This document shows positions 71-27,044 of a stretch of 27,044 nucleotides of DNA, in pieces. The notes under the pieces are model-generated. The model searched no databases and was not told where the DNA came from. It saw nothing but the letters and a program-made list of their open reading frames with translations. Source of the stretch: a virus; the IMG/VR virus record IMGVR_UViG_3300017971_000681, positions 1 to 27,044 of that record; one strand, 5' to 3'. The position numbers and the translations under genes were made by a program. Position 1 is the first letter of the stretch; every line of letters starts with the position of its first letter.

Positions 71-880
71 TCACCTTATCTTTGTAAGTGGAAGTAATGC
101 TATCTTTTCATAAGGAACTTCACCACCACCCCCTGCTGCATTTGCATCTACCCATTCCAAGCCCACCGGGTCTAGTGTTTTATTCCACCCAAACTGCTGA
201 TAAAGAAACCTTAATTGAAGTTTCCAGGTTCTAACCCATCCACTTTTAGAACTGTACTTTATTTCCCTGCTTGCTCTAGGTCCATCAAATAAAACTGTTT
301 CAGCATCAGCACCAAAAATACCATCTGTGTTAACCTTACCTATGGATGAACGTAGTAAAGCAAACTGTGGGTTATAGACCCGTGGTAATTCTACATCGTA
401 AGTAATGGTGGGTATACGTATATGCTTCTTCACAATCCTAGAACCACCACCAGCACCCGGTGAAATTTCCACCTTAACGGGAACTACCAAAACTTCTACG
501 CTAAAATCTAGGCTTTCAATTAAATAAGTTTCATCAAAATCATCATCCTTATCTTCTGGTTCTTCATAGGGCATGGTTTCATAATTAATGGTTATTTTTG
601 CATCTGTAAACTGTATGGTTTCATGGAAACTATAATTAGCAGAACGTGAACCCATAGGTTCTACATCTACAGAAGCTACCTTAAGCTTACTTAAATTGGG
701 CCATGGTTTAGAACTGGACCAGATAGCATCATCACCATAAGTATTAAGCCCACCAGTTAAGTCTGTAACTGTGTCTTCTACATCCACCCAAGGAATCTTA
801 CCCACCCTTGTACCAGAAATACCTTCTGGGGTGTAACTTAACTTGGGTTCTGCAATCTCTTCTATAGTGGCTACTGCCAT
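71..880 (-). CDS. Putative tail protein downstream of tape measure (distal tail/baseplate candidate)
   Basis: 269 aa, start chosen at an ATG with AAAAGGAG nine bases upstream. The protein is rich in beta-prone stretches. It has an acidic patch around residues 105-115 (EEPEDKDDDFDE) and a glycine run near residue 255 (AAGGGG), with no signal peptide or membrane segment. It follows the tape measure gene by 29 bases. In siphoviruses this slot usually holds the distal tail protein or a tail hub component, so that role is inferred from position only. I do not recognise a specific family. Its TWK codons near residue 219 contain one copy of the ACCTGGAAA word (221-229). Confidence 0.55.
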   Translation of the reverse strand: MAVATIEEIAEPKLSYTPEGISGTRVGKIPWVDVEDTVTDLTGGLNTYGDDAIWSSSKPWPNLSKLKVASVDVEPMGSRSANYSFHETIQFTDAKITINYETMPYEEPEDKDDDFDETYLIESLDFSVEVLVVPVKVEISPGAGGGSRIVKKHIRIPTITYDVELPRVYNPQFALLRSSIGKVNTDGIFGADAETVLFDGPRASREIKYSSKSGWVRTWKLQLRFLYQQFGWNKTLDPVGLEWVDANAAGGGGEVPYEKIALLPLTKIR

Positions 881-909
881 GGGTTAAACTCCTTTTAATT
901 TTTTCCAGG

Positions 910-2652
910 TTAAGCACCTACTAAAGCACCACCACCCACTGCATCTACAATTCTATCAGCATTTTTATCTGCTTGCTTGTTTCCTTTTTCCATTATCTGT
1001 ACTTGCTTTTGCAGTATGGCAGCTTGGTCTTTACCGTCTTTATCCTTAAATGCGTTTTTAAGGTTCTCTTTAAACATATCAGTTATGGATTTAAACTCTA
1101 CCTTTACTTCTACTTTCTTCTTCATATTGTCTGCTGCAAAGTTCATCTGCTCAAAATTAGAAGCAGTCTTACCAGCTTCTACTTTAGTGTCTGCCATATC
1201 TTTTTTAACCTTTGCCACAAGTTCTGCCCATTCTTTCATAACGGGTAATTCTCTAAACCCTTCAAATTCTGGTAAAGGTATTTCTATATCGTCAAAATGT
1301 TTTCCTATGTTAGACTTATATTTCTTTGCAGTATCTGATACCAGTGCATGAAGCCTATCACTTTTTCCGGTAGTAAGGGCTTCCCATGCCATGGATAAAG
1401 TATTACCTATGTCTGTAGCCAGTTCCATAAATATTTCCCCTGCCATTTTTGCGAAAGACCAAGCTTCCTGCAAAGCAAAGTTAAATATCTTTCTGAAAAC
1501 AGGCATAGCATAATCACGTAGAAAAGCCCAAGCCTTTTGCCCAATTAAAGGAAGGTTCTTAAAAAACCATTTTGCTATGTTCAATGCATTTTTCCATACA
1601 AACCTTTGATATTCCAGGTATCCCTGCCAAGCTGTACGCGCGATAAGTACAAAGGCTTGCTGTGCTGTTTCCCATTTACTGAACATAGCTATAACTATTC
1701 TAAGCCTATCAGCACTAGCCCTAACGAAACTACCAAAGCTTTCACCCCACTTTTTCAAGTGGTCTATGTTACTGTTAATGTACCCTAGTATTCCGTTAAA
1801 CATATCTACGATAGCTTCAAGTGCAGGAATGAAAAGCGTACCTACTTTTGCACCTATATCTTTAAGCAGACCCCATAGCCTTTTCATCAGGTTAGCAAAG
1901 CTACCAGAACTTCTTTCTGCATCACCTTGTGCATCAGTAGTACCACGTAGAATAATGTTCCATCTAGCTTGGGCTTTAGCAGCTTCACTAGCTGATGATT
2001 CCATACCCTTAAAACCCATAGTAGCCAGTTCAGCTTTAACTGCTGTTTCATTAACTACTACACCATATTTTTTCATTACTTCACCACTGCCAGTTAAAGC
2101 TGCATGCAAATCATTTATAACGTCTGCATCTGCTTTATTATTGAAAGATGCCAAGTCTACACCTAGCTGTACTATCTGTGTAGACATACCAGCAGCAGCA
2201 TCTTCTGTATACCCAAGTGGTTTAAGTAAATCCCCGGTGTTAGCTACAAAGGATTTTAATTCGTTCCTAGAACGTCCTAGAGTCTTTGCCATATCATCTA
2301 GTACAGGGTTAAGCTTAGTGCCTACAGTTTTAAAAACCACGTTAAATTTATTGTCTACTTCAGTGGCATCTGAAGCTAACATAACCGTAGCTTTAATAGC
2401 TTTAACCAAACCGTATACAGCAGCAGCAGCAGCTACAGCAGCTACAGCTATTTTTGCAAAGCCCATTTTTGCAGCAGAACCCATTTTTCCCATGGACCCT
2501 GATACTTTCCCCATATCAGCAGTACCCACTTTAGTGAAACGTCCTAAAGAATCCCTAGCACGTTCTGCACCTTTCTTAGTTCTACTAAAGGCTTGCTGTA
2601 CACCATCATCTTTAGCGACGATGGAAAAATAAAGACTACCTATCTGGTCCAT
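910..2652 (-). CDS. Tail tape measure protein
   Basis: 580 aa, start at an ATG preceded by GGAGAAAGAAAACC. The N-terminal 40 residues look like known tape measures (a KDDGVQQAFSRTKKGAERA helix). A strongly hydrophobic Ala/Val segment follows at about residues 66-92, then long amphipathic helices with aromatic-rich membrane-like patches around 335-400 (for example WQGYLEYQRFVWKNALNIAK). The C-terminus is Lys-rich and charged. Family knowledge: tape measures span the tail tube, set tail length and help DNA entry. The gene sits directly after the frameshifted tail chaperone, the classical order, and the chaperone extension overlaps its start by 17 bases. At 580 aa it predicts a rather short tail (about 85-90 nm by the usual 1.5 angstrom per residue). 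Its stop codon TAA overlaps a copy of the ACCTGGAAA word. Confidence 0.88.
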   Translation of the reverse strand: MDQIGSLYFSIVAKDDGVQQAFSRTKKGAERARDSLGRFTKVGTADMGKVSGSMGKMGSAAKMGFAKIAVAAVAAAAAVYGLVKAIKATVMLASDATEVDNKFNVVFKTVGTKLNPVLDDMAKTLGRSRNELKSFVANTGDLLKPLGYTEDAAAGMSTQIVQLGVDLASFNNKADADVINDLHAALTGSGEVMKKYGVVVNETAVKAELATMGFKGMESSASEAAKAQARWNIILRGTTDAQGDAERSSGSFANLMKRLWGLLKDIGAKVGTLFIPALEAIVDMFNGILGYINSNIDHLKKWGESFGSFVRASADRLRIVIAMFSKWETAQQAFVLIARTAWQGYLEYQRFVWKNALNIAKWFFKNLPLIGQKAWAFLRDYAMPVFRKIFNFALQEAWSFAKMAGEIFMELATDIGNTLSMAWEALTTGKSDRLHALVSDTAKKYKSNIGKHFDDIEIPLPEFEGFRELPVMKEWAELVAKVKKDMADTKVEAGKTASNFEQMNFAADNMKKKVEVKVEFKSITDMFKENLKNAFKDKDGKDQAAILQKQVQIMEKGNKQADKNADRIVDAVGGGALVGA

Positions 2653-2871: not shown

Positions 2872-3393
2872 CCTCTTCCGTTTCTTCCTTCTGGGTATCG
2901 GTACGGTAGGGTTTGCTTTAATGTACTCTTCCCTTCCAGAAACCCTTTCTATGGTTTCCATGATTAAAGTAAGTTCACCTATGGTAAGTTCTGTTTCTGG
3001 ATTATTACTATCGAATAACTTATAGAAATCTTCCCACTTGTCCCTATAGGTTTCATTGTTCTTTCTTACACTGCGCCAAAAAAGGAAAATAACACCATCA
3101 CCACCTTTAGCTTCATTCCAGTCTTCAGCACCCATGGGGCTATTAAGTCTTTGGTTATCTAACTTAAGTGCTTCTTTAGCCAGTTCTAAACGTTCTTCTT
3201 TACTGAATCCTTTAAAGGCTTCACTTTCTGAAAGAGCATCTATAGCAGAAACCATACTACGCTTTAAAAATTGGTCTGCTTCATAGAAGTCTTTAGGTCC
3301 AAGTGGGCTTATCTGCCATTGTCTACCCCTAACTTCTACATACTTTGAAACCCCAGATACTCTTTCCTCTTGTGTAAGTGCTTGGTTATCCAT
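2851..3393 (-). CDS. Tail assembly chaperone (short form, G-like)
   Basis: 180 aa, ATG at 3393 with AAAGGAG upstream. A mainly helical, acidic protein with a YVEVRGRQWQISPLGPKDF start, similar in pattern to phage tail chaperones that also resemble tail-tube-associated XkdN-type proteins. It ends in a very basic tail (PRRKKRKRKKQNGR), which the frameshifted form would replace with an acidic QKE-rich and then amphipathic extension only if slippage occurred earlier; slippage at AAAAAG keeps most of the basic run. Lies between the tail tube and tape measure genes, the standard chaperone position. The leader upstream of its start is nearly identical to that of the gene starting at 5835. Confidence 0.75.
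   Translation of the reverse strand: MDNQALTQEERVSGVSKYVEVRGRQWQISPLGPKDFYEADQFLKRSMVSAIDALSESEAFKGFSKEERLELAKEALKLDNQRLNSPMGAEDWNEAKGGDGVIFLFWRSVRKNNETYRDKWEDFYKLFDSNNPETELTIGELTLIMETIERVSGREEYIKANPTVPIPRRKKRKRKKQNGR
2865..2873 (-). promoter_or_regulatory. Candidate -1 ribosomal slippage site (GGAAAAAGC)
   Basis: In the zero frame the codons read AGG AAA AAG CAA. A one-base backward slip gives GAA AAA GCA, and the AAG to AAA re-pairing in the A site is perfect. It is the only A-run in the short window where both frames are open before the zero-frame TAG at 2851. It resembles but does not equal the canonical A AAA AAG heptamer, because the base before the run is G. Confidence 0.5.
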
Positions 3394-3428
3394 AATGTTT
3401 TATAGCTCCTTTGATTTCTGGAAGTTTT
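3391..3428 (-). repeat. 38-bp leader repeat, copy 1
   Basis: The ribosome-binding region and start of the chaperone gene (3391-3428) matches 5833-5870 at about 36 of 38 positions by eye. It includes AAAGGAGCTATAAAACAT followed by TATG. Shorter relatives (AAAGGAGCTAT or AAGGAGCTA) lie before the genes starting at 23137, 22931 and 17936. It is either a duplicated translation-initiation cassette or the product of recombination between spacers. Confidence 0.7.
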
Positions 3429-3441
3429 CCAGGTGTAAAAA

Positions 3442-3843
3442 TTAACTAGCTGCTGCCCATGTATAAGCACCATGGGTTTCATAACTAATCTGAAAGGTGG
3501 TAGCTTCACCAGTATCTACGTTTACCCCTATCTGCAAGGAAGTAACACGTACACTACCGCTAAGTTTTCTGCTTCCACTTGCAATAGTTAAAATTACGTC
3601 CACTAAATCACCTTCACTAAACAAGGTATCTATATCTACACTAGAAGAAATTTTACCTTGTATACTTCCTGAACCTTGCTTATTACCACTTACTGTAGTT
3701 TTATAACCACTAGTGGAACTGGTAGCAAAGGAATCATTGTCTACCGTTCCTGTAAAATCCCACTGTGTAACCTCTAAAGCTGTGGGTGTAGAACCATATT
3801 CTACTGTTCCATCTTTTCCACTTACATGGGTTTCTGCTGCCAT
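3442..3843 (-). CDS. Major tail (tube) protein
   Basis: 133 aa, ATG at 3843 with AAAGGAG. A compact beta-rich protein with a DGTVEYGSTP start, a Gly/Ser-rich middle (residues 40-66) and a C-terminal strand with TTFQISYETHGAYTW. Size, composition and position immediately before the tail chaperone and tape measure fit a siphovirus tail tube subunit with the gpV/Hcp-like fold. It would form the hexameric rings of the tail tube. Assignment is by pattern and gene order, not by catalytic motif. A copy of the ACCTGGAAA word sits just after its stop (3426-3434 is in the spacer upstream of position 3441). Confidence 0.72.
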   Translation of the reverse strand: MAAETHVSGKDGTVEYGSTPTALEVTQWDFTGTVDNDSFATSSTSGYKTTVSGNKQGSGSIQGKISSSVDIDTLFSEGDLVDVILTIASGSRKLSGSVRVTSLQIGVNVDTGEATTFQISYETHGAYTWAAAS

Positions 3844-4272: not shown

Positions 4273-4274
4273 GA

Positions 4275-4690: not shown

Positions 4691-5341
4691 TTAACCCCCT
4701 TCTAAAGGAGCTATAGAAGTAACAGCATCCACCACTACATAAGAATCTAGTTTAGAAAGTTTAGACACAGCATTAACTTTGTACTGGTTATCACTGCTAT
4801 CTATGATTGTATCACCGGGTTCTATATCCGTACCTTGTGGGAAGAACAATTTATGGGAAACTTCTACATCCCGTTTATCACCCTTCACCATAAGCTTCTT
4901 CTGCATATCCTGTACAATGGTTTCTACACCAGAAGCTACGGTAGTTAAGGTAGCAGACACAGCACCATGGGAACCTTTTTTCCAGGTGCTACGTTTTATG
5001 GTAACAGTTTCAGATATGTTACTATTGAAGTCTACCAGTTTACACCAGCACCTGTAGCGGGTTTCTAAGGTAGCTGTGTCTACTGCAAGCACTACCCAAA
5101 GCTTACTATCATCTGTAATTGTATCACCGGGTTTAGGTTCATAGTCTGTATCTGCTATATCCAAATTAAACTTAACATCTGAAATAGTGTATACACCATT
5201 AGATGCTTCAGCTTCCTTAAGGCTTACTTGTCTAGGTAATGCGTTATCTACTTCCTGTTCCGTAGCTGTACCAGCTTGGGTAACAGTAACAGTAGTTAAC
5301 CCGTCAAAGTATGCTAAATCACCAGATACGTCTATAGCCAT
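4691..5341 (-). CDS. Putative head-tail joining (stopper/connector-type) protein
   Basis: 216 aa, ATG at 5341 with AAAGGG. Beta-rich and without membrane segments. Two internal stretches look alike: EPKPGDTITDDSKLWVVLAV (about residues 72-91) and EPGDTIIDSSDNQYKVNAV (about 177-195), each a GDTI turn followed by an aromatic strand, which suggests a duplicated small beta barrel. Head-closure (stopper) proteins have such barrels and occupy this position before gp10-like proteins; the role is an inference. An ACCTGGAAA word is read here as TWK. Confidence 0.5.
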   Translation of the reverse strand: MAIDVSGDLAYFDGLTTVTVTQAGTATEQEVDNALPRQVSLKEAEASNGVYTISDVKFNLDIADTDYEPKPGDTITDDSKLWVVLAVDTATLETRYRCWCKLVDFNSNISETVTIKRSTWKKGSHGAVSATLTTVASGVETIVQDMQKKLMVKGDKRDVEVSHKLFFPQGTDIEPGDTIIDSSDNQYKVNAVSKLSKLDSYVVVDAVTSIAPLEGG

Positions 5342-5573: not shown

Positions 5574-5835
5574 TGTTTTTAACTACTCCGTTATCATCAT
5601 AAACTAAATCAGCTAGTTCTGATGCTGTTATAGGTTTAGCTTTAAAAGTATGTTTAGTCTTACTAATCCTGCATACTTCCCTGTACCTAGTTACAGCTTC
5701 TGTTTCATTAGAAGCTGTAACTACGATACTAGGGGCATCCTTAAGGGTAACTAACCACTTGCTACCATTACGTTTTTTTCTGATAGTACCCTTAACCGTT
5801 TTCTTCTTAGTAGTTTTCTTTTTAATAACTTTCAT
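5563..5835 (-). CDS. Small basic protein, paralogue of the gene at 5876-6190
   Basis: 90 aa, ATG at 5835 with AAAGGAG in the repeated leader. The first 25 residues are extremely Lys-rich (MKVIKKKTTKKKTVKG). The rest is a small domain: VTLKDAPSIVVTASNETEAV, RYREVCRI, then ITASELADLVYDDNGVV. The upstream gene has the same plan (VTLKDCPAIVCTCASTDEAI, KYHAVTGI, ITPEELEELNYSDETGLV), so the two are tandem duplicates. Located just after the capsid gene; may be a head-completion or DNA-contacting protein, but the function is unknown. Confidence 0.68.
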   Translation of the reverse strand: MKVIKKKTTKKKTVKGTIRKKRNGSKWLVTLKDAPSIVVTASNETEAVTRYREVCRISKTKHTFKAKPITASELADLVYDDNGVVKNNDD

Positions 5836-5870
5836 AATGTTTTATAGCTCCTTTGATTCATGGAAGTTTT
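5833..5870 (-). repeat. 38-bp leader repeat, copy 2
   Basis: Second copy of the leader at 3391-3428, differing at about two positions near base 27. It carries the AAAGGAG ribosome site for the gene starting at 5835. Confidence 0.7.
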
Positions 5871-5875
5871 TTAGA

Positions 5876-6190
5876 CTAGTCTGTAACTAGTCCTGTTTCA
5901 TCACTGTAATTAAGTTCTTCCAGTTCTTCCGGTGTAATCTCTTCAATTTTAAAAGGATTAACATTACTACCGGATATACCAGTTACAGCATGGTATTTAC
6001 TAATTGCTTCATCTGTAGAAGCACAAGTACAAACTATAGCAGGACAATCTTTAAGGGTAACCAAAACAGTTTTAATAACTACTTCTGCTTCCCTCTTTAG
6101 CCTTGCTGCTTTTAGTTCTTTAGCAGAACCTGCTACAGGTTTAGTTTCTTTCTTTTTTGCAGCAGGTTTTGTATCCTTCTTTCTAGCCAT
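5876..6190 (-). CDS. Small basic-tailed protein, paralogue of the gene at 5563-5835
   Basis: 104 aa, ATG at 6190 with AAAAGGAG. The N-terminal 35 residues are a Lys/Ala-rich tail (MARKKDTKPAAKKKETKP), followed by the same roughly 60-residue domain as its downstream neighbour and an acidic end. Lys/Ala tails of this type often contact nucleic acid, which is only a suggestion here. The gene begins 43 bases after the capsid gene stop, in a spacer that carries an ACCTGGAAA copy at the stop codon. Confidence 0.68.
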   Translation of the reverse strand: MARKKDTKPAAKKKETKPVAGSAKELKAARLKREAEVVIKTVLVTLKDCPAIVCTCASTDEAISKYHAVTGISGSNVNPFKIEEITPEELEELNYSDETGLVTD

Positions 6191-6233
6191 GTAATAACTC
6201 CTTTTCAGGATTAAAAATTTTCCAGGTTAAAAA

Positions 6234-7436
6234 TTAGGTAGCTGCTTTATAGTTCTTACCAGTAGCTCGGGGTTCTGTAACAGCAGGTATACCACGTTCA
6301 CTAGCTTTAAACCTAGCTACTATATCCTGTTCAAATTCCTTTTCACTATTGGAAGGTGCTTGTACCACTGTAAGGGGCCAATTTTCCATCCATGCAAAAG
6401 CTTTCTGGAAATCACCATGGAACCAAAAATCTGCACTGTTAGCTGCTGATTCACCAGAAGCAATCATGCGCCTATAGGCATGCTTACTTACAATCAGTTC
6501 ATAATTTTGAACAGGGTTAGCACTAACGGTAACTTCACCAGCAGCACCTTCTACACTTCTAACTTCACTTGCACCAAGCACTCGCCTAAAGTGGGTTTGT
6601 CTTGCAGGCATGCAAAGGATTTGGTTAGGTGTTACGTTAATAGGTTCACCAGTATGGGGGTCCAGCATATCATTAAATTTCTGTTCACTGGCATCTATCC
6701 TTTCCCACCCGGTAGCTACTACATCCATACCGTTACTGCTAGTAACGTTAATCCACGGTGTAGCAGTCTGGTAAGTATCATAAGCTGTACCTTTCCAGGT
6801 GTAGTTATTAGTAATACCTAACACCATATCCAGAATAGCTTTTTCTTTATTAACCCCCATAAGTTCACCCACTTGGGATGCATTACGGAGTACCAAACCA
6901 GTCCTATCGAAAAATACAGCTTCCTTAGTAACTGAAACAATGAAACCCTTTTTAGTAGTGGCAGGGGTTTCTATGTAGTCTTCACCAAATCCAAGTTCAG
7001 GATATGGCATACCCTCTTTTACTTCAGTAACGTTATCAGTGATGCCTGTAATACCGGGGATTTTTTCACCACTGAACTTAGTAGGAATAACTTTAACAAG
7101 CCTATTCCAAACTAGCGTAGCAGCTTCATAACCACCCAGAATAGCACTGTAGATAATTTGTCCTGTAATGTTATTGAATAGGGTACTATCTACTGCACCC
7201 CCTGCTTCCATTACAGAAGTGGCCCCTGAAGGGTCAAAGAAAACTTTAATACCTTCAGCACCAATAGAGTTACCGTTACTATCCACTATAAGGGCTTCTG
7301 CTAAATCCCTGATACTAAAATCTTCAGGGGCTACATGCTTTTCTTCCAAAGCTTCCTGCAAATGGGCTACTGTTCTAGCAGCACCATCAGCAGATACGCG
7401 CTTTTTAAGTTCATTACAGTTAATCTTTTTAACCAT
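6234..7436 (-). CDS. Major capsid protein (HK97-like fold expected)
   Basis: 400 aa, ATG at 7436 with AAAAGGAG. An N-terminal helical arm of about 85 residues (MVKKINCNELKKRVSADG) precedes FNNITGQIIYSAILGGYEAA, consistent with a short built-in delta-like or arm region. The middle has strands and a long helix (LRNASQVGELMGVNKEKAIL). The C-terminal part with SADFWFHGDFQKAFAWMENW and EKEFEQDIVARFKASERG resembles the capsid P-domain and last strand. It lies downstream of protease-scaffold and decoration genes, the standard head order. Size and context make the identity likely; the fold is inferred. The gene carries one ACCTGGAAA word read as TWK. Confidence 0.85.
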   Translation of the reverse strand: MVKKINCNELKKRVSADGAARTVAHLQEALEEKHVAPEDFSIRDLAEALIVDSNGNSIGAEGIKVFFDPSGATSVMEAGGAVDSTLFNNITGQIIYSAILGGYEAATLVWNRLVKVIPTKFSGEKIPGITGITDNVTEVKEGMPYPELGFGEDYIETPATTKKGFIVSVTKEAVFFDRTGLVLRNASQVGELMGVNKEKAILDMVLGITNNYTWKGTAYDTYQTATPWINVTSSNGMDVVATGWERIDASEQKFNDMLDPHTGEPINVTPNQILCMPARQTHFRRVLGASEVRSVEGAAGEVTVSANPVQNYELIVSKHAYRRMIASGESAANSADFWFHGDFQKAFAWMENWPLTVVQAPSNSEKEFEQDIVARFKASERGIPAVTEPRATGKNYKAAT

Positions 7437-8472: not shown

Positions 8473-8527
8473 GTTCAAATTCTCCTTCTATATCGTTTTT
8501 AAAATTTTTCCAGGTTAAAAATATTAG

Positions 8528-9148: not shown

Positions 9149-9655
9149 AGGTTTTCTTTCTCCTTCTTTAGATTCAAAAAGGCTAGATACAGTAGCAGGG
9201 TCTGCTACTACGTCTACGGATTTTACGCTTAAGATGCTTTCACATACTCTTCTTTTATTCTTCATCGGAAACAAACGCGCAGTAGCGTTATGGGATAGAC
9301 CCACATTACCCGGTGAATTTTTAACATCGTAAATAAACTGGGGTGCTAGACGATGGGCTAGGTTAAAGTGCAAATCCCCAAATAAACCTTTTCCTTCTAC
9401 AAGCCTAACGTTTCGTAAGCTACCAAATCTATCTGCATAGCTTCTTTCTGCATGGGGCTTGTTTCTAGGTGGGTGGTCTATGTTTACTTTTGCACCTTCA
9501 TAAAGTTCTGTAGCTTCTGCTAAAGCCTTATCAGGGTAGTCTACACCGTTTGCAGATTTGTTACCGATAATCTTTACACCTTCCACTACACCTTTATCTT
9601 CATTAAGTTTTCCAGGTGCAAAATCTACACTTTCTAGTACGTCAAAATTGGGCAT
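8528..9655 (-). CDS. Prohead protease fused to scaffold domain
   Basis: 375 aa, ATG at 9655 with AGAAAGGAG. Residues about 1-165 are the protease: GVKIIGNKSANGVDYP, then VNIDHPP (candidate catalytic His), DRFGSLRNVRLVEGKGLFGDL, VGLSHNATA (candidate catalytic Ser) and ILSVKSVDVVADPAT. The pattern fits a self-processing prohead serine protease of the S78-like/gp21-like clan. Residues 170-375 are low-complexity, acidic and helical, with Glu/Asp runs (DDDEEGTDDNESD) typical of scaffolds. The protease matures the head after scaffold-guided assembly. An internal start at residue 170 would make the scaffold alone. Confidence 0.8.
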   Translation of the reverse strand: MPNFDVLESVDFAPGKLNEDKGVVEGVKIIGNKSANGVDYPDKALAEATELYEGAKVNIDHPPRNKPHAERSYADRFGSLRNVRLVEGKGLFGDLHFNLAHRLAPQFIYDVKNSPGNVGLSHNATARLFPMKNKRRVCESILSVKSVDVVADPATVSSLFESKEGERKPMKVRKKKSNGDNQQSSFSADEIKATLEGKGFEDEDIKAVLEEMEEGAGGGEAAPTSTSDVDAVLTLIKRDLENPNLDLKATIKAVAAKIKALKELIPGGTAEAKPAEGSDGEGDMQSIDDDEEGTDDNESDTVTLESVLEVCDAASFKPDAKQRKMLATLDTKKEVLETVQQWQKESDLEDNKPNIHNVKESTYKDSKEWAKGLKS

Positions 9656-10759: not shown

Positions 10760-11947
10760 TTAATTACTCCTTTTTGCTTTTGCTGCATCCTTCTTAGCTT
10801 TAAGTGCTTTCTTCTTTTGTCTAGCTCTACGTCTAAGAACAGATGCAGACGATTCTTTTTTAATACTGTTAACGGGTCTTAGTTCCCCTTCATCATTTAT
10901 AAAATCAAAGTAGCTTGGTTTCTTTCCAGACTTTGCAAGCTTCCTTTGCATAGCTTCAAATCTTTCTTTACCCACTATCTTTTTCTTAGTGGCTAAAGAC
11001 TGTTTATTAAACCACCCTTGGTACTGTGCTGTACTTACCCTTGGTCCTTCTTCTAATTGTTCTGGCATCTTTCCGGTAACAAGGGGAACATACCAGCACC
11101 TACAGTTAGGTTTGTCTGGTAACTGTGGTCTATCAGATGCTTTGTATTTACCCTTCCCTGCATCCTTGTAATAAATTCTTCCAGCGCGTTTTGCGTGTTC
11201 TGGTCTAGTTCTTTCGTCCAGTGGGTTTTGTATTTGAAATGCATAAATACTATCTTCAAACTGTTCAAATACTTTTTCTCGCATTTCATTATCTATACGC
11301 GCGGATTCTGTTCTAATAACAGTTCTAAGCCTACCGCTAAAAGCTTCTATGTCTGGTTTCACTTGGTTTAGGATTGTATCAGCATCCTTACCTTCTTCCA
11401 GCATATCCAGAACTTTAGAAACTACTTTCTTATCTTTGGTGTTCTTAGTCCACTTGCGTATACGTTTAGTTACTTCCTTACGGTTAACTATGCTTTCTAC
11501 TTCTTTAGTGCTTGGGGTTTTCCTTCTCTTGCTACTCTTGCTTCTACCCTTCTGGGGCTTCTTCTTTCTAACCTTTAGCTTCTTAGCTTCAGGTTCTTTT
11601 AACCCCTTGGATTTCTTCTTAGCTTCCTGCACTGATTCAGTAACGGAAGTTCCAGGTGATAAATGCCTATCTAGAATATCGAAAGCATCATTGTAAGAAG
11701 GTATTACTTTAGACGTAATTTCTTTTAGTGCTTCCTCTTCCCCGGTTAATAGGATTCTATTTAAAGCTACTTCTAGCTGGTTACGATTCTTTACACCACT
11801 ACGTACAAGGGAAGCAAAAGCTAACCACTTTTCACTTACCTTACCAGTGAATCTTTTAGCCTGTTCTATATCTTCGTTTATCTGGCTACCTACCAGTATT
11901 GCTAAATCTGTGTTAATAGCCCTTTGTAGCTTTGTTAGCTTTGGCAT
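10760..11947 (-). CDS. Minor head protein, Mu gpF / SPP1 gp7-like
   Basis: 395 aa, ATG at 11947 overlapping the portal stop as TAATG. Residues 1-110 are helical. Residues 111-150 form a very basic linker that contains KLKVRKKKPQKG. Residues about 208-290 carry the Mu-F-like domain: IRTESARIDNEMREKVFEQF, NPLDERTRPEHAKRAGRIYY and the family signature PNCRCWYVPL. The C-terminus is again Lys/Arg-rich. Proteins of this family bind the portal, enter the virion and in some phages are carried into the host with DNA. Directly downstream of the portal, as expected. Confidence 0.82.
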   Translation of the reverse strand: MPKLTKLQRAINTDLAILVGSQINEDIEQAKRFTGKVSEKWLAFASLVRSGVKNRNQLEVALNRILLTGEEEALKEITSKVIPSYNDAFDILDRHLSPGTSVTESVQEAKKKSKGLKEPEAKKLKVRKKKPQKGRSKSSKRRKTPSTKEVESIVNRKEVTKRIRKWTKNTKDKKVVSKVLDMLEEGKDADTILNQVKPDIEAFSGRLRTVIRTESARIDNEMREKVFEQFEDSIYAFQIQNPLDERTRPEHAKRAGRIYYKDAGKGKYKASDRPQLPDKPNCRCWYVPLVTGKMPEQLEEGPRVSTAQYQGWFNKQSLATKKKIVGKERFEAMQRKLAKSGKKPSYFDFINDEGELRPVNSIKKESSASVLRRRARQKKKALKAKKDAAKAKRSN

Positions 11948-15203: not shown

Positions 15204-15204
15204 A

Positions 15205-15847: not shown

Positions 15848-17167
15848 TTATTCTCCGTTAACTTGGTTATCTCTAATTACTTCACGTTTAACTTCACTTT
15901 TGTTACCGTCTTTTTCGTATAAAGAATAAGTTTCCAGGTAACCTTTCTGAAGTATCCTATTATCTGTAAACCTTAACGTAGTAAGCTTTGGGTAGTAATG
16001 TTTACCTGCACTTTGGTAACCACCTAAACTTATACTGTAAGGTGAAATGCAATCTAAAAAAGTACAATCAAATACATTAAGTGTATCTAGTTCATCACAA
16101 TAAATAGAAATTGGTGTAGTAATTCTTTCAAAAGTACATCCTTCTATTAACATTCCACCCCATGCTTTACACTTATCGTCTGCATGTACTTTAATTCCTA
16201 TTGGAAAATCCCTTAGTACTCCTTCCCTTGTATCTACAATCTTTGCACCCTTAACGATTCCTTGCAGCTTTCCGTTAGTTTGGTTAGCCCAAAACAAAAT
16301 ACCGTAATAAGGTTTAGAACCTTTCTTAGTAAAAATTACAGTATCGTTTATGCTTTCACAATTATTACCCGTTTGGAAACCAATACCACAAAAGAAAGCA
16401 TCTATAATTACGTTATCTTTACTTAAAACGTAATTGGTCTGTGTCTTTATTCCCCGTTTATCACAGAAAGCAAGTACATTACTTTCTATTACAAAATGTC
16501 CGTTATAGCCTTTGTTTAAAAGCCTGATACCATCAGCATCTTTTACGGGTGAAACGTAACTGATTCTATTCCCTTTTATTAAACACCTAGCATTATGTTT
16601 GGATAAATCCCTAGAGTTACTAACAGATATACCAGTACTGCTTTTAGCTGCTTCTATTCTTTCAACAATACAGTTAAGTATTTGAAAATCGTAATTACTA
16701 TGGTTAAAAGAAATAGCACTTACGTTAGTGTTTTTATTTTTATCCCCTATATTCTTAACGGTAATACCATCTATGGTAGTGCTGGTAGTTCTCATTATAT
16801 CCGTAGCCCTAGTACAGCACTTCTTACCATCTATGGTAAAGCCCTTCAGGGTTAGCTGGTCTGTATCCCTAACGGTAATAAAGGTGTACGTATCAGTTCC
16901 TTCTACCGGGGAAAGGATACCCTTACCACTAATGGTAAGCTGGTCCTTGTCTATAACCATGATGGACTTGGTTATAGTAACGTCTGTGTCCAGTACTAGC
17001 TGGTTCTGTTCTCCTTCTGGTAGTTCCTTGATAGCGGTATTGATAACTGCACTGTTATCTTTTCCAGGTTCTATTTTCAAGTCTGATACCTTAACTGTTT
17101 TTGCATAGAGCATGGAAGCAAGGATAAGACTAATAACCATACACAGTAATGTACTTCTAACTTTCAT
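15848..17167 (-). CDS. Exported right-handed beta-helix (pectate-lyase-like fold) protein
   Basis: 439 aa, ATG at 17167 with AGAAGGAG. Residues 1-22 look like a signal peptide (MKVRSTLLCMVISLILAS, then an LYA site). The body has regularly spaced short strands typical of parallel beta-helices: VDTDVTITKSIMV-like runs, LTISGKGI, LTLKGFTIDGKK, IDGITVKNI, FQILNCIVERI, VIESNVLAF, LIEGCTF and LNVFDCTF. Beta-helix proteins bind or cleave polysaccharide in tailspikes and lyases. Tailspikes normally lack signal peptides, so an exported enzyme or surface protein made in the infected cell or lysogen is also possible. No catalytic residues can be assigned. Placed between candidate terS and terL, an unusual site. 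Confidence 0.72.
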   Translation of the reverse strand: MKVRSTLLCMVISLILASMLYAKTVKVSDLKIEPGKDNSAVINTAIKELPEGEQNQLVLDTDVTITKSIMVIDKDQLTISGKGILSPVEGTDTYTFITVRDTDQLTLKGFTIDGKKCCTRATDIMRTTSTTIDGITVKNIGDKNKNTNVSAISFNHSNYDFQILNCIVERIEAAKSSTGISVSNSRDLSKHNARCLIKGNRISYVSPVKDADGIRLLNKGYNGHFVIESNVLAFCDKRGIKTQTNYVLSKDNVIIDAFFCGIGFQTGNNCESINDTVIFTKKGSKPYYGILFWANQTNGKLQGIVKGAKIVDTREGVLRDFPIGIKVHADDKCKAWGGMLIEGCTFERITTPISIYCDELDTLNVFDCTFLDCISPYSISLGGYQSAGKHYYPKLTTLRFTDNRILQKGYLETYSLYEKDGNKSEVKREVIRDNQVNGE

Positions 17168-18414: not shown

Positions 18415-19680
18415 TTACTCTTCAGGGATTACTTCTATAGTTAGTTCACCTTCTACTTCCTTTCTTACTTCCCCTGCTACAGCTTGGATAAACTGTTTAT
18501 TGTTTATCACTGCTGCCATTACATCAGGGGCTTCTTTCAGTTCCAGGTGTTCTAATCTATTTTTAATTTCAGCTATACTAGCTTCTATCCCTGAAAGGTT
18601 TACTGAAGCTTCAGGTGGGTTATTACACTTTTCAGTAAGCTTTTGCAATAGCATTTTAATCTGCTGCATTTCCTGCTTTAGTTCCGTATCATCATACTGT
18701 GCTGGTTCTGGCACTGGTATTAACGGTGTAACAGGTTCCACTGGTCTAGTGGGCTGTGGTGTAGATATAGTGGGGTTACTTTTACCTAGCACCCTTTGGT
18801 GCTTAAACAAAGGTATATAAACCCTTGCCCTATTCCGGGGAAGTATACGTAGACCCTTACCCGGTGAATAGTAGTAAGCAGGTGCTTTAGCTTGTGGTGT
18901 AGGATATACAGGGTAAGCTGGTCTAGGTCTTACTGGTGCTGCTGGTATCATGCACTGCCCACCGTAGCATTGGGTTTTAGTAATACCACTAGGTTCATCA
19001 AAAGAAACTACTGAAGTGAACTTAGTAAAGTACCCTGTACGTTCTTCACCATGGGAACCCCAAGCTATACCTACTAAACTCCACGTATCGGTACGGAACA
19101 CTGGACCCCCAGACCACCCTTCAGGAAAAGGAAAGTTTACCTTTCCACTAAAACCTTCTATCTGGTATGGGGGCTTACCTTCCCTGATACCATCCACCTT
19201 GATTACTGAACCACTACCCTTAGTAGCTGCAAGCCTACCGTTAGGGTAACCCGATACTGAAACTTTTTCCAGGTTACTTAGCGGTCTGGCATCCAGTAAA
19301 GCGCAGTGTACTTTTCCTTTGGGAACATAGACATAGAAAGCTATGTCTGGATTTTCATTAGAGTAGATGGGATACGCGCGGTAATGTTTACTGTGTCCTA
19401 CAGTGCCTACTGATATGTAACACTTTTCAGGGTTCCTATTACTAAGCAGATGCCCACAAGTAGCAAGTAGTACAGTACCGTTACTACTCTGTAACAGGTT
19501 AACCCCAGACCCATAAGTAATACCATTACCTTCATCATATAGGGTAAGCTGAATTACAGAAGCATAGGCTTCTTTACTTGTTTGTCCTTTGGCAGCTACA
19601 GTAACCACAAGGGTAGTGATAAGCACAATCAAAAAAGCTAGTGCTGCCATGATGTTAAGCTGAATGTTTAAACGTTTCAT
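18415..19680 (-). CDS. Membrane-anchored or secreted trypsin-like serine protease with coiled-coil tail
   Basis: 421 aa, ATG at 19680. Residues 10-30 form an uncleaved anchor or signal peptide (MAALAFLIVLITTLVVTVAA). Residues 35-227 have the chymotrypsin-fold pattern with a full triad: His77 in LLATCGHLL, Asp112 in NPDIAFYVY and Ser190 in GWSGGPVF, then LVGIAWGSHGEE. A Pro/Tyr/Arg-rich linker (about 240-330; PVRPRPAYPVYPTP) leads to a coiled coil (LKQEMQQIKMLLQKLTEK; IEASIAEIKNRLEHLELK). It should act outside the cytoplasm. Possible roles are receptor or envelope processing, superinfection exclusion, lysis or defence against other phages; context does not decide. Confidence 0.78.
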   Translation of the reverse strand: MKRLNIQLNIMAALAFLIVLITTLVVTVAAKGQTSKEAYASVIQLTLYDEGNGITYGSGVNLLQSSNGTVLLATCGHLLSNRNPEKCYISVGTVGHSKHYRAYPIYSNENPDIAFYVYVPKGKVHCALLDARPLSNLEKVSVSGYPNGRLAATKGSGSVIKVDGIREGKPPYQIEGFSGKVNFPFPEGWSGGPVFRTDTWSLVGIAWGSHGEERTGYFTKFTSVVSFDEPSGITKTQCYGGQCMIPAAPVRPRPAYPVYPTPQAKAPAYYYSPGKGLRILPRNRARVYIPLFKHQRVLGKSNPTISTPQPTRPVEPVTPLIPVPEPAQYDDTELKQEMQQIKMLLQKLTEKCNNPPEASVNLSGIEASIAEIKNRLEHLELKEAPDVMAAVINNKQFIQAVAGEVRKEVEGELTIEVIPEE

Positions 19681-20957: not shown

Positions 20958-21674
20958 CTAATAACTTTCTGCTATCCGTATTAAAGTTTCCAGGTGATGG
21001 GAAGACGTTACTGGTAAGTCCTTGCAAGTATTGAAAAAATGCTTTTCCCCCCATGTATTCAAACCATGATACCACCGGATATACAGCATGGGGTTATTTA
21101 CTGCAATAGCTATCTGTTTTAGGTCCAGTCCACAAGCACTTAAAAATGCTGTGTCTTCACCCCTAGTTAACTGTGGATACTCTGCTATCATCTTAGTCTT
21201 ATCGTAGAGTATCGTTCCTTCTATACCACCAAACCTTTTACGGTGTATATCACCCCGGTAATAGTAAGCTTCATCAGGTGAATAGAACTTAGCTCTAATC
21301 TGGTTAGCCAGTAAGCAGCATGGGGTGTTAAGCTTGTACATAGCTGCATACTGTGATGTTATCCTATCCGGTAAACAATAGTCGTCATCATCCCACTGTA
21401 TAACTAAATCAGTGGTGGAAGCTGCTACTGAAATATTCCTTAGTTCACCTAGAGTTATTTCCTCTTCAGGTTTGGAAGCTAGTACTAGTTCCTGTACTTG
21501 GTCTGGAAAGTTCTTAGTGATGTTACTAAACCACGGTACAAAATCAGTGTTAACTATAACTATCTTTTTGTTAGGGTAGGTCTGGTTAACCCAAGCATCA
21601 AAAGCTTTTTGTGCAAACCGTTTTCTAACTGGTATGCCTGTTATCATCAGTGCAGTGATAGGTGGGAAGTTCAT
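20958..21674 (-). CDS. GT2-family glycosyltransferase (GT-A fold)
   Basis: 238 aa, ATG at 21674 with AGAAGGAA. The N-terminal strand ITALMITGIPVRKRFAQKAF and NQTYPNKKIVIVNTD are typical of GT2. LGELRNISVAASTTDLVIQW leads to the metal-binding DDDD (residues 95-98) followed by YCLPDRI. A C-terminal acceptor region has RGEDTAFLSACGLD. It would transfer a sugar from a nucleotide sugar; the acceptor is unknown (virion protein, phage DNA base or host surface glycan). Contains an ACCTGGAAA word read as HLET near its end. Confidence 0.78.
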   Translation of the reverse strand: MNFPPITALMITGIPVRKRFAQKAFDAWVNQTYPNKKIVIVNTDFVPWFSNITKNFPDQVQELVLASKPEEEITLGELRNISVAASTTDLVIQWDDDDYCLPDRITSQYAAMYKLNTPCCLLANQIRAKFYSPDEAYYYRGDIHRKRFGGIEGTILYDKTKMIAEYPQLTRGEDTAFLSACGLDLKQIAIAVNNPMLYIRWYHGLNTWGEKHFFNTCKDLPVTSSHHLETLIRIAESY

Positions 21675-22104: not shown

Positions 22105-22931
22105 TTTGGGAAGTTCCTTATTCTATTCTGAAAAGCGTATGGGGGCTTAACAGTTTTGTTAATCCTACACAGACCCTTGTAGTAGTCTATGTTAGGACGT
22201 ACTAAAGATTCTATACCTATATGCTGTGCTACTGCTGGATTAAGGCTATGCACTTCATAACCCATATCTAATGCTTGTCTGCACAGTTCACCATCCCACC
22301 CGATACGCTTAGTGGTGGTGTTACCAAAGAACGTTAAAGCTTCCATCCAAAACTTCCGGTGGATAAGTATACAGGTGGAAGACACTACTCCTTGTTCATT
22401 ATGTATAACAAGCTTTCTAATCCTTCCTGCATTTGCTGTATTGCATCCACTAAGGATAGCTTGTCCTGCACTTGGTTTAGTTTCCAGGTGTACATCAGTT
22501 CCAGCATGGAATAGCATTTTACTAAACCAGTCCAGCTTAAATAGCATATCATCCTGTAACAGTATCACAGCATCTACGTTTGGTCTGTAGTGAAACTCTG
22601 AACTAATGGCCCTTCTAGAATTGTTATTAACTCCACCTTGTGACATAGCACCATTAACAGTAACCCTATTACTGATGCCTACCACAGACCCATTAGATAT
22701 GCTTAGTGTTCCACCAGTAATTTCTAGAAACTCTTTTCTTCTAGTCCATACGTAACCATCGTATAGTGCATGGTCTATCTGGTAATAGGCTAGTGTATCA
22801 CCATCGTCTGATGCATCATCGTAAACAGTTACTGGTACGTCTTCAGGTAGATTAGACCCAGACAAACTTTTTAACGTAGCGTCTAGGTATCTATACCTGT
22901 TCCTTGTAGTTATCGCTATGCTAACTTTCAT
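22101..22931 (-). CDS. GT2-family glycosyltransferase
   Basis: 276 aa, ATG at 22931 with AGAAGGAG. It opens with MKVSIAITTRNRYRYLDATL and VTVYDDASDDGD, the donor-nucleotide-binding start of GT2 enzymes. The metal site is probably AVILLQDDMLF (residues 121-131). Later blocks include STCILIHRKFWMEALTFFGN and RIGWDGELCRQALDMGYEVH, as in family members. Unrelated in detail to the second GT2 gene at 20958, so the two may add different sugars in sequence. The gene overlaps its upstream neighbour by ATGA. Contains an ACCTGGAAA word read as HLET. Confidence 0.8.
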   Translation of the reverse strand: MKVSIAITTRNRYRYLDATLKSLSGSNLPEDVPVTVYDDASDDGDTLAYYQIDHALYDGYVWTRRKEFLEITGGTLSISNGSVVGISNRVTVNGAMSQGGVNNNSRRAISSEFHYRPNVDAVILLQDDMLFKLDWFSKMLFHAGTDVHLETKPSAGQAILSGCNTANAGRIRKLVIHNEQGVVSSTCILIHRKFWMEALTFFGNTTTKRIGWDGELCRQALDMGYEVHSLNPAVAQHIGIESLVRPNIDYYKGLCRINKTVKPPYAFQNRIRNFPK

Positions 22932-23856: not shown

Positions 23857-24381
23857 TGTAGTAACTCCTTTCTTCACTAACGGGTAACGTTCATAGTCCA
23901 CTGGTAATTTTTCCAGGTACTCTTTAAACCCTTCAGTACTTGCTGAAACCCCGGTGATGGAACCCACTGCATGGGCAGCTTCTGCTAGGCTATCAAAGAA
24001 ACCATCTACCAGTGCTTCATTTTCAAAAAGGGTTCTGGTATCACCTACCACCAGAATCTTTTTATCATCCCTTAACATCATCTTCACTTTCAGGAAGTAG
24101 CCAAACTCTACAAGGTGGGAACCCCTGTAAGCCCCTGTAAGCCCTTCAGAAAGCACTATGAATACATCAGCACTTTCCACCCCTTCTAGGTCTGAAACAG
24201 CTAGGGATGGGATTCTGGCCCCTTCTGGACCTAAATTAGCTTCTTCATCCCTTCCTGATTCATATAGCCAGACTGAAGAGATAATACAGCCCTTGCTTGC
24301 CAAGTAGTCTGCAAGGTGTTTCAGTTCTTCTTTACGTTCATAGCTTCCAGCTATATACACTACATGATTGCCATTAAACAT
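23512..24381 (-). CDS. Nucleoside 2-deoxyribosyltransferase-like domain fused to a Cys-rich phage domain
   Basis: 289 aa from the ATG at 24381 (MFNGNHVVYIAGSYERKEEL), preceded by AAGGAAAGG; the frame extends 26 codons further up over a separate small gene, so I reject that start. Residues 7-125 have the family pattern: VYIAGS, LADYLASKGC, SDLEGVESADVFIVLSEG and HLVEFGYFLK with Glu92 as the likely nucleophile. Such enzymes exchange bases on deoxynucleosides; related folds act in other base-removal reactions. Residues 176-289 form a separate unit ending in CKGCYWNEAYHLTGQSNC, CFKCTEEEREDGKSVLF, a four-Cys pattern seen in many phage proteins. An internal start at 23856 would release this unit. 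Confidence 0.68.
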   Translation of the reverse strand: MFNGNHVVYIAGSYERKEELKHLADYLASKGCIISSVWLYESGRDEEANLGPEGARIPSLAVSDLEGVESADVFIVLSEGLTGAYRGSHLVEFGYFLKVKMMLRDDKKILVVGDTRTLFENEALVDGFFDSLAEAAHAVGSITGVSASTEGFKEYLEKLPVDYERYPLVKKGVTTVAKPQKKSYIKNKRHHLTKALKQSVIDAQVVMGNEVDVELELNDIVDVGGTMLTVVEDTNKPDEVCKGCYWNEAYHLTGQSNCIAPFMPCFKCTEEEREDGKSVLFAEVIPAPN

Positions 24382-24406
24382 CTTACTAACCTTTCCTTTC
24401 TTTGGA

Positions 24407-24538: not shown

Positions 24539-24551
24539 CCTTGTTAACTCC

Positions 24552-24671: not shown

Positions 24672-25063
24672 TACTTACCATCCCATGTTACGGGTAATTT
24701 CATTTCAGGGAAATCTTCTTTAGCTTGGGTTACTATGTCCTGCACTATAGAAATGGTTTCCCGTTCCAGGTGCTTAATACGTTCTACTACTCCACTATCC
24801 AGAAGCAGGTTATGCGTAGCTTCATTAGATAGAAATTCATCCTTTAAACTACTGCACTGCATGCGTACCTGTTCAGCCCATGCTACAGCTAGCCAGTATT
24901 TACCCATAACATAGTTAAGGTGTTCTTTGCTTCCAGCTTCATAGTTAAAGAATGGTATCTTATCCACTGGCACTATCTCTAATGGGTTCCGTTTCTCCTT
25001 CTTCTTAGCTTTGCTTTTAACCTTAACGGTTAATTTCTTTTTCTTCCTTGCTTTTACTTTCAT
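24671..25063 (-). CDS. Basic N-tailed small protein, unknown function
   Basis: 130 aa, ATG at 25063 with AAAGGAAG and a four-base ATGA overlap with the gene upstream. The first 27 residues are almost entirely Lys/Arg (MKVKARKKKKLTVKVKSKAK). The rest is a helical domain (YVMGKYWLAVAWAEQVRMQC; VERIKHLERETISIVQDIVT) ending in PVTWDGK. The tail suggests nucleic-acid contact; nothing else identifies it. An ACCTGGAA core falls inside, read as HLE. Confidence 0.62.
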   Translation of the reverse strand: MKVKARKKKKLTVKVKSKAKKKEKRNPLEIVPVDKIPFFNYEAGSKEHLNYVMGKYWLAVAWAEQVRMQCSSLKDEFLSNEATHNLLLDSGVVERIKHLERETISIVQDIVTQAKEDFPEMKLPVTWDGK

Positions 25064-25272
25064 AGTATAACTTCCTTTATGTTATCCTTTGGTACGTATT
25101 CCCTTCTGGTTACCCCATGGTGTTCTTTCCACCGTACAAGGTAAAAGGGTATACCATTCAGTTCATGCGATACAGCAGAATCTAAGCCCACTATATCACC
25201 TTCTATTAACTCTTCATCTTCCCATTCAAACCTAACCCTTTTGCCTACTAGGTCTGTGTCTTTGCTAACCAT
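25060..25272 (-). CDS. Small beta-barrel-like protein
   Basis: 70 aa, ATG at 25272 with GAAAGGAG. Strand pattern LVGKRVRFEWEDEELIEGDI, VGLDSAVSHELNGIPFYLVR, WKEHHGVTRREYVPKDNIKE resembles small SH3/KOW-like barrels. Starts three bases after the methyltransferase stop. Function not known. Confidence 0.62.
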   Translation of the reverse strand: MVSKDTDLVGKRVRFEWEDEELIEGDIVGLDSAVSHELNGIPFYLVRWKEHHGVTRREYVPKDNIKEVIL

Positions 25273-25275
25273 CGT

Positions 25276-26133
25276 CTAAACTCCTTTCATGTAGTTAAGG
25301 ATATGCGCGATAACATCCACGGTAAAGGAATTACCTAAAGCCCTATACCTTTGTGCATTACTTACGAAACGGGTGTAACCGTCTGGTATCGTCTGTAGCC
25401 TTTCTATCTCTAGTGGTATGGTTCTACGTACAAGTCCATTAGACATTACCGTATAGTTCCCTTCATACGTCCTAGCGTTACTAGCCATAACGGTAGTAGC
25501 CTTATCTGGGTCTATCGCTATGCTATTCATTCTTATCTGCTTCTTCTTCCTCTTCCTGAAATCTGCTTCATCGTAGTGGGGTACATCATCTATAACGTCT
25601 TCCAGTACATCACTAAAGGCTAGCTGCTTATCTTCCGGTAGTGTAACCCCCTCTATGTTAGTCCAGTAGTACCTTACCCTATGCTGCCCACTAACCAAGC
25701 TGGAATTAATCTTAATGGGTTCCACCCCAAGCATGCTGCTTATAACGTCTAACCATTCCCGTTTCATAAAGACATTTTCCAGCAGGAAGTATTTAGGTCT
25801 GGTTTCACAAAGTAGCCTGTAGTATTCAAAGATAAGACTGCTGCGCCTATCTGCAAAGTTTAGTTTCTTTCCCCGTCTGGTGAACCCCGTACATGGTGAA
25901 CCACCCACCAGTAAAAATACTTTAGGTAGGGTAAACCCATCCAGCTTGGTAACGTCACCTACTTGTATAGTGTCTGGATAATTGTTCTGCATTATCTTCA
26001 TAGCGTAACCATCTATTTCAGATGCATAGTAGTTATCGTACCTGATGCCTACTCTATCCAAAGCTATCCTTGCTGCACCTATCCCATCAAACAAGGATAG
26101 TACGTTTACTTCTTTCTTCCTTCTAGCTTTCAC
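25276..26133 (-). CDS. DNA (cytosine-5) methyltransferase, orphan
   Basis: 285 aa, GTG start at 26133 with AAGGGG eight bases upstream, overlapping the upstream gene by 11 bases. All main motifs are visible: I SLFDGIGAARIAL (13-25), IV GGSPCTGFT with catalytic Cys81, VI FLLENV (Glu119), VIII QHRVRYYWTN and X RYRALGNSFTVDVIAHIL. The target-recognition region is short (roughly 160-240), as in compact phage and DNMT3-like enzymes. No restriction nuclease gene is adjacent, so it probably protects phage DNA or marks it. The specificity cannot be read from sequence. Starts with the basic MKARRKKEV. Confidence 0.9.
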   Translation of the reverse strand: MKARRKKEVNVLSLFDGIGAARIALDRVGIRYDNYYASEIDGYAMKIMQNNYPDTIQVGDVTKLDGFTLPKVFLLVGGSPCTGFTRRGKKLNFADRRSSLIFEYYRLLCETRPKYFLLENVFMKREWLDVISSMLGVEPIKINSSLVSGQHRVRYYWTNIEGVTLPEDKQLAFSDVLEDVIDDVPHYDEADFRKRKKKQIRMNSIAIDPDKATTVMASNARTYEGNYTVMSNGLVRRTIPLEIERLQTIPDGYTRFVSNAQRYRALGNSFTVDVIAHILNYMKGV

Positions 26134-26332
26134 TTCCTGTACCCCTTATGGTTAAGTAAGGTGCTATCTTAGATTCCTGTAATTGTGCTATGCAGTAGGG
26201 ACAATACCAGACCCCAGCGCGTTTTCTCCACCCATGCTTTACAAAGTGGTTATTTGCTTTCCGTTTAGATAGGTTACCATCTACTTCTGCATTTTCTCCA
26301 CAGTCACAAGTTAGATACCATTTCTTAATCAT
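26123..26332 (-). CDS. Small zinc-ribbon protein
   Basis: 69 aa, ATG at 26332 with GGAAAGGAAGG, overlapping the gene upstream by eight bases. Two Cys pairs (CDCGENAEVD near residue 9 and CPYCIAQLQ near residue 44) with intervening His residues (NNHFVKHGW) suggest one zinc-binding site. It may bind DNA or act as a small regulator; unknown. Confidence 0.65.
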   Translation of the reverse strand: MIKKWYLTCDCGENAEVDGNLSKRKANNHFVKHGWRKRAGVWYCPYCIAQLQESKIAPYLTIRGTGSES

Positions 26333-27044
26333 GGTAACCCCTTCCTTTCCTCTTTAAGTTTGAACTTCGTTTAACGTGTTCTATCCCCTCTTGCAGGTTT
26401 GCAGCAGTCCACAAGTCCCTAACTTCTTTGGTGACGATATAACCACCGGGGTTAGCACCCCTTCTATACTTCTTCAATGTAGACTTAATAACTATTTCAG
26501 TTTGTAGTAAGTCCTTCATCTTACGTAGTACGGTTTGGTATGGCAGTCCTGTTAGCTCCACCAGTTCATTAATGGTTATTGCTTTACCATCGTTCTTTTC
26601 CATCATGGCGGTAATAATATCTAAACCAAAACCATAAGCAGTATCATAGCTAACACGTTCTACCAGTTTGAATACTTCACCATCTACTTTATCCTTCCCT
26701 AGTATTATCATGTTAGCCATAGCTAGTTTAGCTAACTGCACTGCTAAACGTGTAGGTAGTTCTGGTTCTGGTTTAACTTGTAAAATATCCCCTTCCCTAC
26801 TATAGGTCCATTCCACCTTTTGACGTAAGAAAGCAATCAGGTTAACAAGTGCTTCTATCTTATCTTCATAGAAACGGGGTAAACATTTTCCAGGTGGATA
26901 TGGAACCAGACGATTTAAGAAAGCTTCCACTACATTTCTAACTGCTTCCCTGTTCTCTTCCTTTGCACCTATGCCCCTGATAGCTTGCAGGATAATCTTT
27001 CTACGCATACCAGACTTCACTGCTGGAAGCTGTAGCTTTAGGAA
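26325..27044 (-). CDS. C-terminal part of an AAA+-like replication protein with winged helix (runs off the window)
   Basis: The frame is open to 27044, adding eight codons (FLKLQLPA) above the GTG at 27020, which has no ribosome site; so the true start lies outside. The visible 239 residues begin FLKLQLPAVKSGMRRKIILQ, then a helical region with RFYEDKIEALVNLIAFLRQK and PELPTRLAVQLAKLAMANMI, the layout of an AAA+ lid/sensor-2 region. A winged-helix follows (ITINELVELTGLPYQTVLRK, MKDLLQTEIV). The tail is basic. This would suit a replicative helicase or primase-helicase C-terminus, inferred from pattern only. Confidence 0.6.
   Translation of the reverse strand, partial: FLKLQLPAVKSGMRRKIILQAIRGIGAKEENREAVRNVVEAFLNRLVPYPPGKCLPRFYEDKIEALVNLIAFLRQKVEWTYSREGDILQVKPEPELPTRLAVQLAKLAMANMIILGKDKVDGEVFKLVERVSYDTAYGFGLDIITAMMEKNDGKAITINELVELTGLPYQTVLRKMKDLLQTEIVIKSTLKKYRRGANPGGYIVTKEVRDLWTAANLQEGIEHVKRSSNLKRKGRGYHD

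Follow-up and report, generated by a model that had tools for sequence, protein, structure and literature searches.

A strand-polar, evenly spaced 8-mer array in a phage with Mu-type head genes: a putative nick motif

Introduction

Several phages carry short words at which one strand of their DNA is interrupted, and these nick motifs are the closest described analogue of the array analysed here. In phages tf, Rembedalsseter, phiKMV and T5 the motif is exact and asymmetric, some 9 bp long in tf, and lies wholly on one strand, within genes as well as between them. Thirteen motif-associated breaks, all in the same strand, have been reported for Rembedalsseter (PMC11780129), the few single-substitution sites outside the consensus are left un-nicked in phage tf (PMC3517423), and what purpose such localized nicks serve has yet to be established (PMC3517423, PMC11780129). 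The present study concerns the IMG/VR virus record IMGVR_UViG_3300017971_000681, the whole of which (27,044 bp) is referred to below as the window, and the 8-mer ACCTGGAA, which occurs in it 22 times in a single orientation. Our likeliest reading, to which we give a probability of roughly one in three, is that ACCTGGAA is a strand-specific, cis-acting DNA site, putatively a nick (single-strand-interruption) motif.

When recounted here, the 9-bp tf motif gave 14 sites on one strand and none on the other, with a minimum gap of 721 bp and a coefficient of variation (CV) of the gaps of 0.86, and the phiKMV nick consensus gave 3:0. The three phiKMV sites, at 6313, 13985 and 24127, coincide with three annotated phage-specific promoters. 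Chi sites in P1 and the lambdoid phages are, like ACCTGGAA, exact 8-bp words that are over-represented and whose orientation matters, but those of P1 fall on both strands (31:19 by our count) and are clustered (CV 1.52), and host chromosomes are likewise rich in Chi. Mu-type prophages of Neisseria, which share the terminase family of the present phage, hold exact uptake words at about 1 per kb, although these lie in both orientations (e.g., 20:12 and 13:10) with near-random spacing. In cluster A mycobacteriophages, 20-30 asymmetric stoperators per genome are mostly oriented with transcription (PMC6550527); they measure 13-14 bp and occupy promoters and short gaps between genes (PMC6550527, PMC9283540), and their reversal abolishes repression (PMC9283540).

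Unlike the variable stoperators, ACCTGGAA has 8 invariant bases and lies within genes in 18 of 22 cases. It differs from the nick motifs in being another word in another phage group, about three times denser than in tf and evenly spaced (CV 0.40 versus 0.86). It matches no known nick consensus (TACTRTGMC; CGACxxxxxCCTA/CTCCGG), and the known motifs also vary between phage groups. Among the exact-word classes counted, absolute polarity is shared with the nick motifs and even spacing with none. The array is best filed with the dispersed strand-polar phage words, its function being putative. To our knowledge, a strand-polar word at even spacing with a minimum distance has not been reported.

Results

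Count, strand and exactness of the word

All 22 copies of ACCTGGAA lie on the minus strand, which is the coding strand (the plus strand reads TTCCAGGT), and inverted copies number 0. Eighteen of them extend to the 9-mer ACCTGGAAA, which the plus strand accordingly reads as TTTCCAGGT 18 times and as ACCTGGAAA never. This recount agrees with the initial annotation, a model's reading of the letters, which had reported 18 exact 9-mers and 22 cores in one orientation with none inverted. The 8-mer is the most frequent of the window and is among the words most over-represented against Markov and codon-shuffle nulls. Dinucleotide shuffles give an expectation of 0.27 copies of the 9-mer against the 18 seen, in line with the earlier estimate of well under one chance copy. 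Synonymous-codon shuffles (n=400) gave 5.7 +/- 1.2 copies of the 8-mer (maximum 9), about 4 of which are sites outside the shuffled codons and fixed by construction, against the 22 seen. The initial annotation had itself named Markov and codon-shuffled models as the nulls that could undo its claim, and neither, as run here, reproduces the count. The copies are as follows, with the amino acids they encode given as the codon phase.

221-229, minus strand, ACCTGGAAA, phase TWK
902-910, minus strand, ACCTGGAAA, overlapping the stop codon of gene 910-2652 and the next spacer
1612-1619, minus strand, ACCTGGAA then T, phase YLE
3426-3434, minus strand, ACCTGGAAA, intergenic; its flanks recur, word-less, at about 5833-5892
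4979-4987, minus strand, ACCTGGAAA, phase TWK
6219-6227, minus strand, ACCTGGAAA, intergenic
6792-6800, minus strand, ACCTGGAAA, capsid gene, phase TWK
8507-8515, minus strand, ACCTGGAAA, intergenic
9609-9617, minus strand, ACCTGGAAA, phase PG
11650-11657, minus strand, ACCTGGAA then C, phase PG
12146-12154, minus strand, ACCTGGAAA, portal gene, phase PG
14003-14011, minus strand, ACCTGGAAA, terminase gene, phase NLE
14846-14854, minus strand, ACCTGGAAA, terminase gene, phase HLE
15931-15939, minus strand, ACCTGGAAA, phase YLE
17061-17069, minus strand, ACCTGGAAA, phase PG
18541-18548, minus strand, ACCTGGAA then C, phase HLE
19266-19274, minus strand, ACCTGGAAA, phase NLE
20987-20995, minus strand, ACCTGGAAA, phase HLE
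22481-22489, minus strand, ACCTGGAAA, phase HLE
23910-23918, minus strand, ACCTGGAAA, phase YLE
24764-24771, minus strand, ACCTGGAA then C, phase HLE
26887-26895, minus strand, ACCTGGAAA, phase PG

The placement is codon-neutral: three copies are read as TWK, ten as [YHN]LE and five as PG, three are intergenic with the same orientation as the rest, and one crosses a stop codon. The three phases and the spacers rule out a protein motif, as had been argued from the start. DNA strand and coding strand are inseparable in the window, as all accepted genes run on the minus strand. The word is exact, with no sign of degenerate copies, and all 22 occurrences of CCTGGA in the window lie within it. The flanking bases (5' C 12, A 7, T 3; 3' A 18, C 3, T 1) are biased at the immediate neighbours only. 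A longer hidden motif is ruled out, there being merely one soft base on either side of the 8 invariant ones. Weaker polar 8-mers are also present on the minus strand, namely TAGAGCTA (10:0), ACCTAGAC (7:0) and CTAAGTTC (6:0).

Spacing

Start-to-start gaps between the 22 copies range from 497 to 2124 bp with a mean of 1270 bp and a CV of 0.40, and the density is 0.81 copies per kb. The claim that the array is more even than random placement would give is upheld: in 100,000 random placements neither such evenness nor so large a minimum gap ever arose (P < 1e-5 for the minimum gap and for the CV), and the maximum gap has P = 0.001. Since codons limit where the word can arise, the places that allow it synonymously were listed as a spacing null. 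There are 28 such places on the coding strand, of which 18 are used and 10 unused, and 6 for the inverted word. The used places lie at least 497 bp apart and the unused ones 101-597 bp from a copy, although 80% of randomly chosen points in the window also have a copy within 597 bp, so that the nearness of the unused places is by itself uninformative. If 18 of the 28 places are chosen at random with the four other sites held fixed, a minimum gap of at least 497 bp has P = 7e-5 and a CV this low has P = 5e-6. A spacer with a ribosome-binding site is duplicated at about 3385-3450 and 5827-5892 with nearly identical flanks, and only the copy at 3426 holds the word; some 360 bp separate the word-less copy from the 6219-6227 site. 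This agrees with a minimum distance, as a single case.

Loss of CCWGG and of other short words

Every CCWGG in the window lies inside ACCTGGAA; elsewhere there are 0, against 14.4 CCTGG and 14.8 CCAGG (about 29) in codon shuffles. Single-mismatch neighbours of the word are depleted as well, with 11 versus 20.1 expected on the coding strand and 2 versus 9.9 on the opposite strand. A number of other short words are avoided on both strands relative to the synonymous-codon null, including CAAC/GTTG (5 versus 178), CTCA/TGAG (4 versus 81), GATC (0 versus 65), GCCG/CGGC (2 versus 41), CTGCAG (0 versus 12) and ACCGGT (0 versus 8), among others. Such wide avoidance suggests a host with many restriction systems, and the avoided set could act as a host fingerprint.

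Relatives and genome searches

No relatives at the DNA level were found among phage records. A separate record of 5,786 bp is identical to the window over its full length, so it represents the same phage and is uninformative. Many terminase relatives occur in IMG/VR and in genomes, with identities of no more than 46%, and the capsid protein has three (42-45% identical); the array is present in none of them. Searches with the portal protein and the gene at 15848-17167 gave no relatives. Where sites could be aligned, the relatives mostly lack the amino acids that the word encodes as well as the word itself, the nearest of them being only 42-46% identical, which gives little hold for the refuting condition set by the initial annotation, namely relatives in which the amino acids are kept and the word is lost. 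At the site ending at 14854 the Leu-Glu pair is common to most of the distant terminases and shifted in none, and the word is absent.

Two scans of IMG/VR for pairs of the 9-mer 520-580 bp apart returned 58 and 71 stretches, and no second phage with the array was among them. By word count, only the 5,786-bp record and a 347-kb contig, IMGVR_UViG_3300042879_006196, stood out, and the remaining stretches were chance-like. The contig is filed as viral but resembles an integron cassette array with attC-type sites, with TGTTAAACCTGGAAA recurring every 60-1400 bp in over 30 repeats arranged head to tail. The 8-mer within this much longer repeat is probably a coincidence.

A host was sought by word density in about 460 genomes, comprising 14 with related prophages, 299 of Pseudomonadota and 148 from the phylum to which a Desulfovibrio genome belongs; the sample did not extend to phyla such as Firmicutes, Campylobacterota and Cyanobacteria. 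ACCTGGAA is at Chi-like or uptake-level density in none of them, and in no case does it reach 1 per 6 kb with both strands summed.

Gene content of the window

The window is the whole virus record, which is probably only part of the phage genome. Its 38 accepted genes cover 95% of the sequence, every one on the minus strand. Mu-type head genes encode the large terminase (13635-15233), the portal (11947-13638), a Mu F-like protein (10760-11947) and the capsid (6234-7436). Tail-connector genes, a C5-cytosine methyltransferase gene (25276-26133) and many genes for proteins of unknown function make up the rest. The methyltransferase is kin to marine phage enzymes, and its specificity is not derivable from the comparison. 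No replication gene was recognised among the 38 genes of this probable fragment, no tRNA was found in the window, and an Rfam search of it gave no RNA element. Two tandem gene duplications, 74-76% identical and with copies about 510-530 bp apart, lie at 7483-7720/7994-8231 and 10004-10146/10534-10676; in the first pair, the second copy, which lies downstream, is a weak match to a phage cement protein family.

Discussion

The array of ACCTGGAA is real, statistically robust, unusual and stronger than first described. There is hardly any doubt that the word works as a signal, which may be a one-strand nick site or a recombination signal. In the likeliest reading, a sequence-specific enzyme would act on the DNA at the 22 copies on one strand only: a phage or host nickase would recognise (C/A)ACCTGGAA(A) and break that strand about every 1.2 kb, as at the interruption sites of T5, phiKMV and tf. 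Inverted or near-cognate copies may have been purged because they would cause double-strand breaks or off-target nicks, and the lack of close copies may reflect the short single strands that nicks at such copies would set free. Nicking would account for the exactness of the word, for its absolute polarity (through the double-strand breaks expected at inverted copies), for the depletion of near-cognates and for the minimum spacing. It is favoured by the 22:0 strand count, by an exact, short and asymmetric word in coding and non-coding DNA alike, by the near-cognate depletion, by a minimum gap of 497 bp beyond what codon opportunity gives (P = 7e-5), and by the lack of Chi-density enrichment in any sampled genome, as expected of a phage-specific site.

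Several points weigh against nicking. The nicks at ACCTGGAA are predicted from sequence alone, and no nickase gene was recognised in the window, which, however, probably holds just a fragment of the phage genome. The even layout and the 2.1-kb ceiling of the gaps are not predicted by it, the tf sites being uneven (CV 0.86), and the density is 0.81 per kb compared with 0.3 per kb in tf. The phage is also unrelated to the known nicked groups. Moreover, the loss of CCWGG may be ordinary restriction avoidance, as many other words are avoided too; if so, the 22 tolerated copies mark a strong functional need. Alternatively, CCWGG may be lost because whatever reads the word would also act on its near-cognates. 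A floor in the layout would be expected if each copy is costly and serves the stretch around it. Type III or type IIE restriction could give polarity or spacing, yet not over-representation.

The main rival to nicking is that ACCTGGAA is the Chi-like site of the host, at which RecBCD or AddAB stops degrading and starts recombination, and that the phage carries the active orientation in order to survive, especially after restriction cuts. Read 5' to 3', the word runs from the terminase towards the tail genes, which is the active Chi orientation in lambda, and its 8 exact, asymmetric bases and 22:0 bias fit such a site. The genome looks heavily restricted, and Chi is over-represented in concatemer-packaging phages without recombinases (PMC3784561). 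However, P1 represents one of the two genera in which Chi is most over-represented (PMC3784561), and its sites lie in both orientations and in clusters; lambdoid sites concentrate between the origin and cos (PMC3784561). None of the roughly 460 genomes is enriched in ACCTGGAA, an incomplete test, as the host may lie outside them. Known Chi words are G-rich and ACCTGGAA is not, and the evenness and CCWGG loss would be left unexplained. We regard a Chi role as possible, and as somewhat less probable than nicking. A DNA uptake sequence of a naturally competent host, built up by transformation, is very improbable: the Neisseria prophages provide a precedent for the density, but their words lie on both strands at near-random spacing, 22:0 would not be expected, and uptake-level density is found in none of the sampled genomes. 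Of the functions that the initial annotation had listed with no preference among them (Chi, uptake, packaging, priming and antitermination included), uptake is disfavoured by the absolute polarity and Chi stays on the list, to which the nick motifs, the closest analogue, had not belonged.

The word may instead act in transcription or as RNA, in a long late operon, as a stoperator-like block of elongation by a prophage repressor in one orientation, an RNA-processing site or an antitermination element. It is always on the coding strand, which in this window of co-directional genes coincides with one genome strand, and stoperators likewise mostly follow transcription and fail when reversed (PMC6550527, PMC9283540), but an invariant 8-bp word that is mostly in genes is unlike them, the window holds no Rfam element, and near-cognate loss on the opposite strand would not be expected; this role appears unlikely. 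The spacing itself is best fitted by lagging-strand start sites for a primase in one-directional replication, since the mean gap of 1.27 kb, with a floor and a ceiling, matches the length of Okazaki fragments, and only one strand would need such sites. Known primases start at sites of about 3 bases, though, we know of no precedent for an exact 8-base start, and no replication gene was recognised in the window, which makes this role more unlikely still. Least credible of all is chance or a codon or protein bias, in which a habit of writing Leu-Glu, Pro-Gly or Thr-Trp-Lys would combine with the avoidance of other words. Part of the polarity could be compositional, given 28 synonymous places against 6 inverted ones, but codon shuffles fall far short of 22 copies, 18 of the 28 places carry the exact word, its spacing given those places has P = 5e-6, and the three wholly non-coding sites share the orientation.

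It is possible, and we put it forward tentatively, that the array represents a phage DNA signal of a new class, strand-polar and even in its spacing, in which an exact 8-mer recurs every 1.2 kb or so with an exclusion zone of about 500 bp and with its CCWGG core purged elsewhere. Each copy would be costly, through restriction or off-target cutting, and the phage would keep just the number that some periodic process requires, for instance nicking, priming or packaging. If the copies are nick sites, the class of nick motifs would come to include a phage whose head genes are Mu-type, and the role of the nicks would be constrained by the spacing rule. If they are Chi sites, they disclose which word serves as Chi in a host that has not been studied. 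In both cases ACCTGGAA is a specific marker to seek in related phages.

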